Assembly (NCBI GenBank): GCA_016234445.1
Contig: JACRBT010000001.1
Location: forward strand, 310,001 to 374,000
Length of the DNA stretch: 64,000 nucleotides
Direction: 5' to 3'
Origin: Chloroflexota bacterium
GTDB taxonomy: Bacteria > Chloroflexota > Dehalococcoidia > Tepidiformales > Tepidiformaceae
Part shown: positions 34,460-39,766 of the stretch, one piece after another
Layout: the number at the start of each line of letters is the position of its first letter
Numbering within the stretch: position 1 is the stretch's first letter
The notes under the pieces: generated by a model
What the model saw: the letters and a program-made list of their open reading frames with translations, nothing else
Databases searched by the model: none
Told to the model about the DNA's origin: nothing
Translations under genes and position numbers: made by a program

Positions 34460-35512
34460 GTGACCGAGCCCACGCTCGAACATCTGATTGATCTGCCCGC
34501 GCTCGAACGCTTCATCAACGACCACGTACCAGGGACGCCCGGACCGATCCAGGTCGAAAAGCACGTCGCCGGGTTTTCCAACGAAACCTTCTATGTCAGC
34601 CGCGGGGGCGACCGCTGGGTGATGCGCCGGCCCCCGGCAGGCCCACTCCTGCCGACCGCCCACGACGTCCTCCGGGAATACCGCTTCCTGGCGGGGCTCC
34701 ACGGGCGGGCGCGCGTGCCCCGGCCGGTCGTCGCCTGCGAGGACGTGTCGCTCATCGGCGCCCCGTTCTACCTGATGGAGCGCGCCGAAGGGGTCGTCAT
34801 CCGCACGGAGATCCCGGCGGCCTACGACACCCCGGAGGGCAGGCGGCGGATCGGCGAGGAGATGGTCGATGCGCTCGTCGAGCTCCACGCCGCGGACTGG
34901 CGCGCCGCCGGGATCAGCGGCCGCGACTCCGGCTACGTGCCCCGGCAAGTGGAACGCTGGAGCAAGCAGTGGGAACTGACGCGCCCCCGCACAAGGGAAC
35001 TCCCCGGGCTCGACGCAATCACCGCATGGCTGAAGGAGCGCATCCCCGCGGAGGTGCCCCACACCGTTGTCCATGGCGACTACAAGCTCGACAACGTCAT
35101 GTTCGCCCGGGACGAGCCGCGGCTGATCGCGATCTTCGACTGGGAGATGGCGACCATCGGCGACCCCCTGGCCGACCTGAGCTACCTTCTCCACAGCTGG
35201 GCGCCGGCGCCGATCCCCGCGGGCTACGAAGCCCGCGTCGCCACGATTGCCGGCCTCAGCCGCCAGCCCGGCTTCCTCTCCCCGGGCGAGATGGCAGCCC
35301 GCTACGAGCGTCTCATTGGCCGTTCGCTGCGCGACTTCCTCTTCTACCGCGTGCTCGCCGCCTACAAGCTGATCGTGATCCTTGAGGGGCTGTACATGCA
35401 CTACATCGAGGGCGCGGCTTCCAACCCCGCCTCGGCCGACTTCGAATGGCGGGTGCCGATGATGGTCCTCCAGGCGGAACAGATGATCGCCACGGGAGGC
35501 AACGATGTTTAA
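34460..35512 (+). CDS. Phosphotransferase (APH/ACAD10-11 N-terminal type)
   Basis: 350 residues from GTG with GAGGAG upstream. Aminoglycoside-phosphotransferase/choline kinase fold: Brenner motif VVHGDYKLDNVMF (205-212) with the catalytic Asp, then AIFDWEMATIGDPLADLSYLL with the metal Asp. The variant IFDWEMATIGDP is the hallmark of the acyl-CoA-dehydrogenase-associated kinases, which phosphorylate 4-hydroxy acyl-CoAs in ACAD10/11-type pathways. An acyl-CoA dehydrogenase is 4 kb downstream. The stop overlaps the next ATG (ATGTTTAA). Confidence 0.92.
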   Translation: MTEPTLEHLIDLPALERFINDHVPGTPGPIQVEKHVAGFSNETFYVSRGGDRWVMRRPPAGPLLPTAHDVLREYRFLAGLHGRARVPRPVVACEDVSLIGAPFYLMERAEGVVIRTEIPAAYDTPEGRRRIGEEMVDALVELHAADWRAAGISGRDSGYVPRQVERWSKQWELTRPRTRELPGLDAITAWLKERIPAEVPHTVVHGDYKLDNVMFARDEPRLIAIFDWEMATIGDPLADLSYLLHSWAPAPIPAGYEARVATIAGLSRQPGFLSPGEMAARYERLIGRSLRDFLFYRVLAAYKLIVILEGLYMHYIEGAASNPASADFEWRVPMMVLQAEQMIATGGNDV

Positions 35513-36518
35513 GAAGCGATGGGCGCTCTCGGTCCCCTTCGACGGCTTCACCAACCTGGAGCACGTCGAGCTGGCCCAAGAACTCGAGGGGCTGGGCTAC
35601 ACGGACGCGTGGTCGTTCGAAGTCGACGGGATCGACGTGTTCTCGCCGCTTGCGGTGGTGGCGCTCTCAACGAAGATGCGCGTCGGCACGGCGATCGCGA
35701 ACGTCTACACGCGCGGCCCGGCGACGCTCGCCCAGTCCGCGGCGGGCATCGCCGAGATCGCCCCGGGCCGGTTCGAGCTGGGGATCGGTTCCGGGTCGCA
35801 GCCGATCGTCGAGCAGTGGAACAACCTGAAGTTCGACCGGCCGGCCACGCGCGTGCGGGAGATGGTGCAGTTCCTCCGCCGGGCGCTCGCGGGCGAACGG
35901 GTGGTGTTCGACGGCAAGACGTTCAGCGTCGACGGCTTCCGGCTCTCACGCCCGGCGTCGTACGAGGTCCCCATCCACGTCGCGGCCCTCCGCGAGGGAA
36001 TGCTCCGGGTGGCGGGCGAAGTGGGCGACGGCTGCATCGTGAACTGGCTTTCGGCCGAAGACGTGAAGAAGTCGGTCAAGGTCGTGCGCGATGCCGCCTC
36101 CGCGGCCGGGCGGGACCCGGCGAAAATCGAGATCACGGCCCGGCTGATGGTCAACATCGACCCGCCCGGCCCGGAGGCCGACATAGTCATGAGGCGCGGC
36201 ATCAACGCCTACCTGAACGTGCCGGTCTACGCCGACTTCCACCGCTGGCTGGGGCGGGGAGAAGCGCTGCAACCGATGTGGGACGCCTGGGAGGCCGGGG
36301 ACCGCCGGGGCGCTGTCGCGGCGATCCCCGCGAAGGTCGTCGACGACCTCATCGTCGGGGGCACCGCCGAGGAGCGCCGCCAGCACATCCTTCGCTACAT
36401 GGACGCGGGGATCGACACGGCGTTCCTGTCGCTGTTCACGGCCGAGACCGACCCCCAGCGCAGGAAGGACCGGATCATGCAGGCGATGCGGGAGATGGCT
36501 CCTTCGGCCTACAAGTAG
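35505..36518 (+). CDS. LLM class F420/FMN-dependent oxidoreductase
   Basis: 337 residues, luciferase-like barrel. RVGTAIANVYTRGPATLAQS, AGIAEIAPGRFELGIGSGSQ and VPIHVAALREGMLRVAGEVGDG are typical of the F420-dependent group. It overlaps the kinase gene by eight bases, so both probably act in the same catabolic route. Cofactor and substrate cannot be assigned; F420 biosynthesis genes are not in the window unless the protein at 60917 belongs to them. A strong hairpin follows the stop. Confidence 0.93.
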   Translation: MFKKRWALSVPFDGFTNLEHVELAQELEGLGYTDAWSFEVDGIDVFSPLAVVALSTKMRVGTAIANVYTRGPATLAQSAAGIAEIAPGRFELGIGSGSQPIVEQWNNLKFDRPATRVREMVQFLRRALAGERVVFDGKTFSVDGFRLSRPASYEVPIHVAALREGMLRVAGEVGDGCIVNWLSAEDVKKSVKVVRDAASAAGRDPAKIEITARLMVNIDPPGPEADIVMRRGINAYLNVPVYADFHRWLGRGEALQPMWDAWEAGDRRGAVAAIPAKVVDDLIVGGTAEERRQHILRYMDAGIDTAFLSLFTAETDPQRRKDRIMQAMREMAPSAYK

Positions 36519-36578: not shown

Positions 36579-37778
36579 TTAGCGGCCGCGGGCGAGGCTC
36601 AGGAGGCCGGCGTTCACGTTGGGAAGCCGGTCCACCGCCACCGAATCCAGGATCTGGAGGTAGTGGCGGAGCTGGTCTTCCCGGAGCTGCCGGACTTCCG
36701 CGACGCCGGCTTCGATCTTCTCGATGCCGCCGCCAAGGATGAGCGCCATCGCCGAGGCGTCGGCGCGGGTGTGGTGCAGTTCGTCGGAAAGCGCCGACTC
36801 GCTGCGGTTGAGGAAGTGGGCAAGGTACTCGCGTGCGTTCGGGTGGTGCTGCACGTAGTACTTGAGATGGCGGACGCCGAAGTCGAGGTGGCGACGCGAA
36901 TCGTGGGCGACCCGGCCGAAGATGTCGCGGTCGACGGCATCAGGCGCGGCCTTCGCAAGCCGTTCGAGGGCGATGACCTCGTAGCTCTTGTAGACGACGT
37001 CGATGGCGACGAGCAACTCGGTCAGCTTGAGGGAACCGAACCAGGCGCGGTAAAGCGTGCCCAGTGCTTCGAGCCCCATGCCGCCGCCGTTGGCGAGAGC
37101 ACGCTTGCGCATGACCTCGGTCTTGCGGCCGGCGTCGAAGATCTGGGTCGCGAGGAAGTCCTTGACGTCGTGGAAGCCGTAAGCGATGCGCTCTTCCCAG
37201 CTCGCCAGCAGCTTGGCTTCAACGAAACCGTTCTGGGCGAAGGTGGTGGAGAGCTGGCAGACAGCCTTCTCGATGTCATCCGGCAGGGCGACGAGTTCGG
37301 CCCACTTGATGTCGGTGGCGGGCGCCCAGCGCTCCCGGATCGCGTCCTCGTAGAGCCCGTCGACGCCGTCGGCCCAGACTTCGCTCTTGTCGTAGACGCT
37401 GTAGGAACCGGGGGCGTACGAACCCGGCGTCGGGTGCGAGCCCAGGGGGGTGTCGTTTTCGTAGGGCCAGTGGTCGGGCACATGGCCGTAGGTGCGGATG
37501 TTGATCTCGGGCATGCCGAGGCCGTTTGGCCCGGGACGGGCGCGGATGCCGAGCTCGGTCGTGGGGCGTGCCCAGGAAAGGCTCAGCTTCGCGATCGGGC
37601 TCTCCGGGTTCGCCTCCACGAGGGAGAGGAACCTGCCGGCGCGCTCTTCGGTCAGGTTGAGGGCGAGGAGGCTGCGGACCTGGTCGTCCTTCAGAGGCGA
37701 CGCCTCCATGCGGCCGACCAGTTCTTCGGACCAGTTTGCCTCACGAGTGCGGATGCGAGTGCCTTCGGAAAGCTGCAT
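36579..37778 (-). CDS. Ferritin-like diiron-protein paralogue with lost metal ligands (beta-like subunit)
   Basis: 399 residues, clearly paralogous to the protein encoded just upstream: both share a TYGHVP/SYGNVP motif, LPDDIE, KRALxNGGG, and RHLxFGVxHLKY. Compared with the paralogue the metal ligands are gone: Glu129 is Gly184, Glu161 is Ala216, His164 is Lys219 and Glu237 is Ser294; only His297 remains. It is therefore a non-metallated partner, like the beta subunit of bacterial multicomponent monooxygenases or PaaC. It has an extra about 60-residue helical N-terminus. Three bases separate it from the catalytic gene, so they are co-transcribed and probably form a heteromer. Confidence 0.85.
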   Translation of the reverse strand: MQLSEGTRIRTREANWSEELVGRMEASPLKDDQVRSLLALNLTEERAGRFLSLVEANPESPIAKLSLSWARPTTELGIRARPGPNGLGMPEINIRTYGHVPDHWPYENDTPLGSHPTPGSYAPGSYSVYDKSEVWADGVDGLYEDAIRERWAPATDIKWAELVALPDDIEKAVCQLSTTFAQNGFVEAKLLASWEERIAYGFHDVKDFLATQIFDAGRKTEVMRKRALANGGGMGLEALGTLYRAWFGSLKLTELLVAIDVVYKSYEVIALERLAKAAPDAVDRDIFGRVAHDSRRHLDFGVRHLKYYVQHHPNAREYLAHFLNRSESALSDELHHTRADASAMALILGGGIEKIEAGVAEVRQLREDQLRHYLQILDSVAVDRLPNVNAGLLSLARGR

Positions 37779-37781
37779 CGA

Positions 37782-38819
37782 CTAAGCCTCCAGGAAGACG
37801 CGCATGCTCTCGGCCATCCGCTCGCGGCGGTCGGCGAGGCCGATCACTTCGAGGCGGTGCATGTACTCGTTGATCTGCTTCTTGCGCATGAGCAGGAGCT
37901 TGCCGAAGCCTTCGTCGATCTTGTCGAGGCCGCCGCCGGCGAGGATGGCGAGCGCTTCGCCGGTGGCCGGGTTGGTCGTGAGCCCGGCGTTGGACTGCCC
38001 GAGGGCCCCTTCCTGGAGGTCCAGGTAGTGGTGCAGCTCTTCGGCGCGCTCGGGGACCACGTCCATGATGTACTTCAGGTGCGTGACGCCGAACGCGAGA
38101 TGACGGGATTCGTCCTGGGCGGAGAGGCGGTAGATGCGCTTCTCGGCTTCGTTGTTCGCGATCAGTTCGCCCATCCGGAAGACGGTCTGGACGAAGCCTT
38201 CGCCGATGAGGTGGAGGCGGGCCGTCATCTCCGTGAAGTCGTCGGCGGTAAGCAGCTGGGAAGCGCCGAAGCCGGCGTCGACAAGGCCGCCGCCGTTCAC
38301 GAGCGCGCGCTTGCGGAAGACGTCTTCATGGCGAGCTTCGTCCATCACCTGCGTGCCGAGGAAGAGCTGCACTTCGAACTGATCCGGGTGGACGGTGCCC
38401 ATGTAGCGGCCCGGGAGGTCGCCGGCGATGAACTCGACCTGCGTGAGGAACGTGCAGAGGGTGCACATCGCCATCTCGATGTCGTCGGGCAGCGGCTGGA
38501 TTTCGTGCCAGGGGATGTCGACGGCAGAGGCCCACTGGCGCTGCATGGCCTCTTCATAGAGAAGGCGCGCCGATTCGCTCCAGACGTCAGCCTTGCTGCG
38601 GTACTGGCGGGCGTGGCGAGGCGAACGCGGGTCCGGCTTGGCGCCGCGGAGACCCATGGTGGCGTTCCCTGCCTCGGTGGGCACGTTGCCGTAGCTGAGG
38701 ACGTTGAGGTCTTCGAGCGTCAGACCCTTCTTGCCGGGGACCGCGCGGGCGCCCCAATCTTCGTCGAGGTTGAGCCACGAGAGGTCGAGACCCGGCCGGG
38801 TCGAGGGAGCGGTGGACAT
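37782..38819 (-). CDS. Ferritin-like diiron oxygenase candidate (alpha-like subunit)
   Basis: 345 residues. Two DExRH motifs (VMDEARHEDVF at 160-164 and AQDESRHLAFG at 236-240) plus Glu129 (LTQVEFIAG) and Glu207 or Glu218 give a full ferritin-type six-ligand diiron site. The DExRH form is that of bacterial multicomponent monooxygenases; AurF-like N-oxygenases and R2-like oxidases are the alternatives. N-terminal about 100 residues are outside the helical bundle. First gene of a two-gene operon with the degenerate paralogue. GGAGG lies ten bases before the ATG. The reaction is unknown; a flavin reductase is divergent and could supply electrons. Confidence 0.88.
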   Translation of the reverse strand: MSTAPSTRPGLDLSWLNLDEDWGARAVPGKKGLTLEDLNVLSYGNVPTEAGNATMGLRGAKPDPRSPRHARQYRSKADVWSESARLLYEEAMQRQWASAVDIPWHEIQPLPDDIEMAMCTLCTFLTQVEFIAGDLPGRYMGTVHPDQFEVQLFLGTQVMDEARHEDVFRKRALVNGGGLVDAGFGASQLLTADDFTEMTARLHLIGEGFVQTVFRMGELIANNEAEKRIYRLSAQDESRHLAFGVTHLKYIMDVVPERAEELHHYLDLQEGALGQSNAGLTTNPATGEALAILAGGGLDKIDEGFGKLLLMRKKQINEYMHRLEVIGLADRRERMAESMRVFLEA

Positions 38820-39199
38820 AGGTTGGGAGCCTCCGATGGGATGGTGGACCGAGCTGGAACGTCACGCGAGATCGTTTGCCGGATGCTAAGGGCACTTACC
38901 GGCGGGTAAAGGGGCCATTGGTCCCCTTCACAGGGTCCGATCGGCCGTTCTGGCCCACGAAACCCCGTTAGGCGCCATGATCTCCGTCATATCCGCCGGA
39001 CAAGACCCTACGAGCCCTGTCACGTTCCCGCGATTATATGGCCCATCACCGTGCTATAGCATCCCTCTATCCCCCTAAATCACGGAAAAGTTTCGCCCGG
39101 AGCGAAATATCCTTCGGGACGATGCCCCGGAGAGCCCGCCGGGTGACCTCCTGGCACATTTCTTGGCACCATAGAACCACCATCCCGCGAGGAGCACCC
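38820..39199. other. 380-base intergenic region between the diiron operon and the flavin reductase
   Basis: No gene found. It holds a perfect minus-strand TATAAT at 39033-39038 and a ten-base palindrome TGCTATAGCA at 39052-39061. In the 200-base leader of the diiron operon there is a hairpin (AAGGGG at 38909-38914, CCCCTT at 38923-38928). Next to the flavin reductase is an inverted repeat TTTCGC-N5-GCGAAA at 39091-39107. The region is less GC-rich than its surroundings, as expected for a regulated divergent promoter. Confidence 0.7.
39033..39061 (-). promoter_or_regulatory. Promoter of the diiron operon with palindrome at the -35
   Basis: Minus strand TATAAT (39038-39033). No -35 match; instead the palindrome TGCTATAGCA occupies that position, as expected for an activator- or repressor-dependent promoter. 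Confidence 0.55.
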
Positions 39200-39766
39200 A
39201 TGACGCACCCCGGCCAGCAGTTCCCGAACATCCCGGGCAGCCCCAAGGAGCTCGAACCGGTGGAAAAAGCGATGCTCGCGATGTCCTATGGCGTCCACGT
39301 CATCGGCTCCACCAGCGCCGACGGCCGGCTCAACGCCATGATCGCCGACTGGGTGATGCAGGTGTCGTTCACCCCCCGGCTTGTCTGCGTCGCCATCGAA
39401 AACGACGCCCGTACCCTGAAGAACGTCCGCGCGACCGGGGCCTTCAGCGTGAACATGCTCCACGAAAAGGACGGCGACCAGATCGCGCGGGCAGTGGTCA
39501 TGCCGTCCGATGGCGGCAAGATCCGCGGGCGGTCTGAAGAAGCAGCCTCGGAGACGCACGACAAGCTCCGCGGCCTTCGCTACAGCCTGAGCCCGGAAGG
39601 CTGCCCCCTGCTCCACGACGCGCTCGGCTGGTACACCTGCGTCGCCGAACAGTTTGTCCCCGCGGGCGACCACACGCTCGTCATCGGGCGCGTCACCGAC
39701 GGCGACCGCATCCGCGACGGTGAGATGCTGATCGAACGCGACCTGGGCTGGGAATACGCCGGCTGA
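39200..39766 (+). CDS. Flavin reductase-like (FMN-binding split barrel) protein
   Basis: 188 residues from ATG with GAGGAG seven bases upstream. Split-barrel flavin reductase domain: AMSYGVHVIGSTSADGRLNAMIADWVMQV, then FTPRLVCVAIE and GAFSVNMLHEKDGD, the flavin contacts. Such enzymes reduce FMN with NAD(P)H and feed two-component oxygenases. It is divergent from the diiron pair, which makes it a candidate electron donor. The unusual SEEAASETHDKLRGLRYS stretch is a longer lid loop than usual. Confidence 0.9.
   Translation: MTHPGQQFPNIPGSPKELEPVEKAMLAMSYGVHVIGSTSADGRLNAMIADWVMQVSFTPRLVCVAIENDARTLKNVRATGAFSVNMLHEKDGDQIARAVVMPSDGGKIRGRSEEAASETHDKLRGLRYSLSPEGCPLLHDALGWYTCVAEQFVPAGDHTLVIGRVTDGDRIRDGEMLIERDLGWEYAG

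Follow-up and report, generated by a model that had tools for sequence, protein, structure and literature searches.

Pairs of a catalytic and a degenerate diiron subunit are known from the multicomponent monooxygenases and from PaaA/PaaC, and in ubiquinone hydroxylation by the Coq7/UbiJ system a diiron hydroxylase is aided by a lipid-binding partner. Of the other dimetal proteins considered here, R2lox has a long-chain fatty acid bound in a channel that reaches its metals and is recognized by a Val-Tyr ether cross-link (PMC6060897), VlmB is a diiron azoxy-forming oxygenase (PMC11705231, PMC12154687), and AurF-type enzymes are marked by a seventh metal-ligand His (PMC12154687). We analyzed a 64,000-nucleotide stretch of Chloroflexota DNA (the window) that carries two adjacent genes, here called A and B. 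We lean toward the reading that they encode a two-subunit diiron (or Mn/Fe) oxygenase or oxidase on the R2-like ferritin branch, acting on a hydrophobic substrate presented by a third protein, S.

A first-pass annotation of this DNA had described two adjacent paralogues of 345 and 399 residues, and both open reading frames were recovered exactly where it had placed them (Table 1). The genes lie on the same strand with 3 nt between the stop of A and the start of B, and their products are 33% identical over 328 aa (BLASTP, E 2e-54); judged from this alignment, A and B are paralogues. No Pfam, NCBIfam or PHROGs model attained its cut-off for either protein. Weak matches among the 27 A members scanned were mainly to RNR R2, AurF and R2lox, and the 26 B members scanned gave a single isolated one (SinI in one member, E 3e-4). 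Together with the open literature, in which we found no description of the family (subscription papers and preprints were outside the scope of this search, and an earlier description is possible), these scans agree with the annotation's view of the pair as apparently uncharacterized.

B and the F420/LLM gene converge, and a perfect inverted repeat lies between their ends. It has no T-run, was omitted by a terminator scan requiring one, and is probably a transcription end common to both genes. The flavin reductase and the F420-LLM protein were considered as redox partners and rejected: neither is conserved at the 19 loci with window-type orthologues, and the inverted repeat sets the LLM gene apart. 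The neighboring acyl-CoA dehydrogenase gene is likewise not kept beside A-B at these 19 loci. Because the window neighbors are not conserved with A-B, they provide no basis for guessing a substrate. The genome holds a second A-B pair on contig 19, whose A is 59% identical to that of the window and whose downstream genes differ from those of the window pair.

Table 1. Coordinates of the genes and features discussed. Positions without a prefix are those of the window.
Feature	Position	Strand	Remarks
A, putative catalytic subunit	37782-38819	minus	345 aa; ORF, alignment, structure model
B, degenerate A paralogue	36579-37778	minus	399 aa; ORF, alignment
N-terminal extension of B	37614-37778		~54 residues, missing from A
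Perfect 15-bp inverted repeat, GAGT loop	36525-36558	no strand	read from sequence
LLM-class F420-dependent oxidoreductase	35505-36518	plus	convergent neighbor; Pfam/NCBIfam scan
Flavin-reductase-domain protein	39038-39766	plus	divergent neighbor; Pfam scan
Second A-B pair, window genome (L169)	G000:C19:20681-22971		
S gene, window genome	G000:C5:7162-7581		on another contig
Solo A-S-ferredoxin loci, window's family (L186-L188)	G017:C2:502667-504403; G023:C12; G030:C87		
Distant solo A-type proteins, Chloroflexota	L050:913-2328; L052:1351-2589; L068:1171-2382		long N-terminal region
B with duplicated N-terminal motif	L065:1489-2868		
Small ORF between S and ferredoxin, Acidimicrobiia	L138:11509-11710		also L139, L140, L141, L142, L145, L148

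Subunit A contains the motifs DEARH (160-164) and DESRH (236-240), and its predicted ligands E129, E161, H164, E207, E237 and H240 are arranged in the usual order E, ExxH, E, ExxH. A joint alignment covering 187 sequences showed the six residues (EEHEEH) intact in all 112 A-type members, so that the claim that A keeps all its ligands holds across the family. One helical turn ahead of E207, H203 is present in 111 of the 112 and gone from most B sequences; it is a candidate second-sphere residue or extra ligand. The structure model of A (pLDDT 89.7, pTM 0.87) is an R2-like helical bundle, its ligands distributed over four long helices (112-140, 145-173, 195-215 and 224-254). A Foldseek search with this model placed R2lox and RNR R2 on top, with E from 3.6e-5 and TM-scores reaching 0.54 when normalized by query and 0.67 when normalized by target; similarity to R2lox was moderate, about 0.5 by query length. 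In a profile search the best PDB match was a VlmB homologue (E 3.5e-11), followed by R2lox (E 1.6e-6), and MmoX came no closer than E 0.1. On profile and fold prediction together, R2lox, RNR R2 and VlmB are nearest to A.

The rank of VlmB, and weak matches of four A members to AurF, would be expected if A-B were an N-oxygenase or N-N bond-modifying enzyme of secondary metabolism. We regard this as improbable. The seventh His of AurF, four residues ahead of the second-motif Glu, is missing from A (position 233 is A, C, S or T), natural-product genes were not recognized among the annotated neighbors of the loci inspected, and many genomes carry several pairs.

Distant solo A-type proteins with 28-31% identity and a long N-terminal region occur in Chloroflexota (Table 1). 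Their N-termini resemble TusA by eye, and a single A member among the 27 scanned matched Pfam TusA (E 1e-4), which suggests a sulfurtransferase-like domain fused to the diiron domain.

In B, five of the six ligands of A are replaced (E129 by G184, E161 by A216, H164 by K219, E207 by K264 and E237 by S294), and only H240 is kept, as H297. The annotation had reported Gly, Ala, Lys and Ser at the ligand places and one retained His, which the alignment confirmed; E207 to K264 is a fifth change missing from its list. None of the 75 B-type sequences in the joint alignment has EEHEEH, a contrast with A much greater than chance would give. The commonest patterns at the six places are GAKKSH and AAHGKH, and only one of the 75 retains any of the four ligand Glu. 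B nevertheless retains Y88, W96, W104, E115, D160, R163 (mostly), D236 and R239 (A numbering), and the alignment pattern is that of a scaffold kept with its metal site gone. Unlike A, B begins with an extension of ~54 residues. This extension has a GWxxELIxR-type helical motif, which is duplicated in one B homologue (Table 1).

Many B members keep one or both ligand His, and 23 of the 75 have Asp at the E207 position. These residues could belong to a B with an independent function or an unusual metal site of its own, its adjacency to A then reflecting simple tandem duplication. We find this very improbable: Lys and Arg are common at the ligand positions, no candidate ligand set is conserved across the B sequences of the alignment, and the linkage to A and the co-divergence described below persist over great sequence distances. 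The residues that are conserved across B are non-ligand (for example D215, R296, E170, W135, W151 and W159, B numbering), so that sequence conservation, taken by itself, lends no support to metal ligands from another part of B, which the annotation had named as a finding that would overturn its reading.

A was present in 38 of 61 relatives, with B nearly always coming after it and often at least two pairs per genome, and in 97 of the 294 Dehalococcoidia genomes sampled, frequently in several copies. Across 80 named loci in other genomes, the A-B pair was found in Dehalococcoidia, including a SAR202 assembly and the cultured Tepidiforma flava, which has a window-type pair, and in Gammaproteobacteria. 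Adjacent tandems numbered 67, and over these loci the distance matrices of A and B were correlated (r 0.95, with 0 of 1000 permutations as high). The annotation's other refuting outcome, that the two genes are not kept together elsewhere, was thus not what we found. B formed a single clade (SH-aLRT 100) in a quick tree with a midpoint root and long-branch warnings.

A clade of solo A genes with no B nearby occurs in Acidimicrobiia, in Myxococcaceae and in some genomes from the window's family, although some A genes scored without B sit at contig ends. Some genomes of this family have, in addition to the pair, a solo version in which A is followed by S and a ferredoxin gene (Table 1); its A is 43-45% identical to that of the window. 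Judging from these solo-A lineages, B is dispensable for the chemistry in some lineages. Horizontal transfer may lie behind part of the spread of A-B over phyla. A plasmid collection contained one distant relative, in Xenorhabdus (24.6% identity over half the length). Two contigs titled Klebsiella pneumoniae carry A (L098, CAMAVY010000004.1; L102, CAMAVY010000008.1), and L102 also has B. Their genes group with those of other Gammaproteobacteria assemblies, and the species label looks wrong.

Clustering of the neighboring genes identified a family of ~145 aa proteins, S, whose gene comes immediately after A or A-B. For the S model (pLDDT 93.5) the best match was the SCP2 protein TT1886 (E 3.2e-5), followed by AF1534 and UbiJ-SCP2, and assignment to the SCP2 fold had a Foldseek probability of 1.00 at a TM-score of ~0.57. 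The Pfam SCP2 score cut-off was not attained (one of 26 members matched, at E 0.11), and these weak sequence matches agree with the fold match of the model. The accessory genes are what is new beyond the first-pass observation. A ferredoxin or a zinc ribbon (Cys4) can be encoded with S: in Acidimicrobiia A is succeeded by S, then at most loci by a small Cys-pair/HxxC ORF, and then by ferredoxin; Gammaproteobacteria have A, B, S, S' and the Cys4 ribbon, and several Dehalococcoidia have A, B, ribbon and S. Counting loci with B or more than 4 kb of downstream sequence, we found AB at 29, ABS with ribbon at 19, A with S and ferredoxin at 9, A at 8, ABS at 4 and AS at 3. S therefore stands beside A-B at 23 loci, 19 of them with the ribbon, and the ferredoxin accompanies S at 9 solo-A loci. 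The ORF of ~65-70 aa between S and ferredoxin in Acidimicrobiia (CPxC...YGWWEW...HxDC) is probably another small metal-binding component.

In the window none of S, ferredoxin or ribbon lies beside A-B. In the window's family S is encoded apart from A-B, mostly in single copy and amid neighbors that vary, and in the window genome it lies on another contig. Among the 294 Dehalococcoidia genomes, 93 had both A and S, 4 had A only, 3 had S only and 194 had neither (Fisher p 2e-67, ignoring relatedness); of the families with either gene, 11 combined the two, 3 had only A and 2 had only S. The surroundings of the in-trans S genes were checked for a hidden operon, and these neighborhoods vary and share no Fe-S gene that we could see. 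A profile search of the window genome for a dedicated ferredoxin or ribbon returned only partial, generic-looking matches. On the lack of effector and electron-transfer genes the annotation is right about the locus; its remark does not extend to the genome, which encodes the SCP2-like S in trans, or to the family elsewhere.

The composition of these loci bears on the comparison that the annotation had drawn with the multicomponent monooxygenases. At the level of sequence alone, A-B has the make-up of a catalytic alpha and a metal-free paralogous beta subunit, and on this architecture the annotation was right. Like MmoX and MmoY, the pair has DExRH motifs and, at some loci, a small protein of ~145 aa and a ferredoxin, as would suit a true hydroxylase of this type in a smaller form, S being its MmoB-like effector. 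This is the least probable of the alternatives that we weighed. MmoX was matched at E 0.11 at best, Pfam Phenol_Hydrox was not matched, and no hydroxylase of these systems was among the best 50 Foldseek matches of A, which the present comparisons already suggest lies inside the R2lox/R2 branch. S has the predicted fold of SCP2, with no MmoB-type effector among its listed Foldseek matches, and no FAD/Fe-S reductase gene was recognized among the annotated neighbors in A-B operons. Closeness to these enzymes was not supported.

R2lox has the nearest predicted fold, and its NCBIfam model drew weak matches from 26 of the 27 A members, at E 5.4e-10 in the best case; the score of the window protein was far under the cut-off (25.4 bits vs 194). 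No substrate turnover is assigned to R2lox in PMC6060897. A-B might be an R2lox-like or other dimetal oxidase that oxygenates no external substrate, being instead self-modifying, ligand-sensing or detoxifying, with S a lipid ligand carrier or unrelated. We hold this to be unlikely, if a serious contender: placed by ligand spacing, the cross-linked V72 and Y162 of R2lox correspond in A to A132 (Ala in 112 of 112) and L202 (Leu, Met or Val), and the dedicated ferredoxin or ribbon genes suggest repeated electron supply.

Under the oxygenase or oxidase reading that we favor, A would bind two metals, presumably iron or Mn/Fe, through its four Glu and two His, and the metal-free B would complete the assembly as a structural partner in a physical complex. 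A small Fe-S protein would reduce A, which would then activate O2 and oxidize a hydrophobic substrate, perhaps an acyl or isoprenoid compound. The likely donors are the dedicated ferredoxin after S in Acidimicrobiia and, in Gammaproteobacteria and some Dehalococcoidia, the Cys4 ribbon after A-B; a general ferredoxin may fill this role in the window genome. By analogy with the lipid-binding partners of ubiquinone hydroxylation, S could bind and present the substrate, acting in trans in the window genome. The gene neighbors include CoA transferases, P450, LLM proteins and enoyl-CoA hydratases, none of them consistently; because neighborhoods differ between genera, no substrate pathway is indicated.

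SAR202 bacteria are thought to oxidize recalcitrant organic matter. More tentatively, and with appreciably less confidence, we suggest an undescribed oxygenase class that attacks hydrophobic recalcitrant compounds: an R2-like A-B heterodimer with metal in A only, an SCP2-fold carrier and a small Fe-S donor, in Dehalococcoidia (including SAR202) and Gammaproteobacteria, and B-less in Acidimicrobiia and Myxococcaceae. If true, this would be a separate case of a catalytic/degenerate diiron pair, one that belongs to the R2-like branch and has a lipid-carrier fold in the place taken by an effector in the multicomponent monooxygenases and PaaA/PaaC. Because A genes are common in Dehalococcoidia including SAR202, and often multicopy, assigning them a function would identify an oxidation step for many uncultured bacteria. 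Tepidiforma lives as a strictly aerobic heterotroph and can use aromatics (PMC10284905), which is compatible with an oxygenase and not specific to one.

A-B may work like an alpha/beta hydroxylase but belongs to none of the known groups compared here: multicomponent monooxygenases, PaaA/PaaC, R2lox, RNR and AurF. PaaA/PaaC is also a catalytic/degenerate ferritin-like pair, but its Pfam model matched neither A nor B at E up to 1, nor any alignment member at E up to 0.01, and counterparts of PaaB and PaaE were not recognized at the A-B locus. A falls short of the RNR R2 domain Ribonuc_red_sm (11.9 bits against a cut-off of 33.6) and lacks the radical Tyr: an invariant Phe168 stands four residues after the first-motif His, which we take to be the R2 radical Tyr site. 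VlmB shares the two DExRH motifs with A, but it acts in azoxy biosynthesis, and no counterpart of B or S is reported in its descriptions cited above. R2lox uses the same ligands (four Glu and two His, with two ExxH helices), but the first-motif His and third Glu are 62 residues apart, compared with 43 in A, and A differs further in its near-invariant H203, its metal-free paralogous partner and S. For S the comparison is one of analogy with Coq7/UbiJ ubiquinone hydroxylation, the UbiJ SCP2 domain being among its top fold matches.
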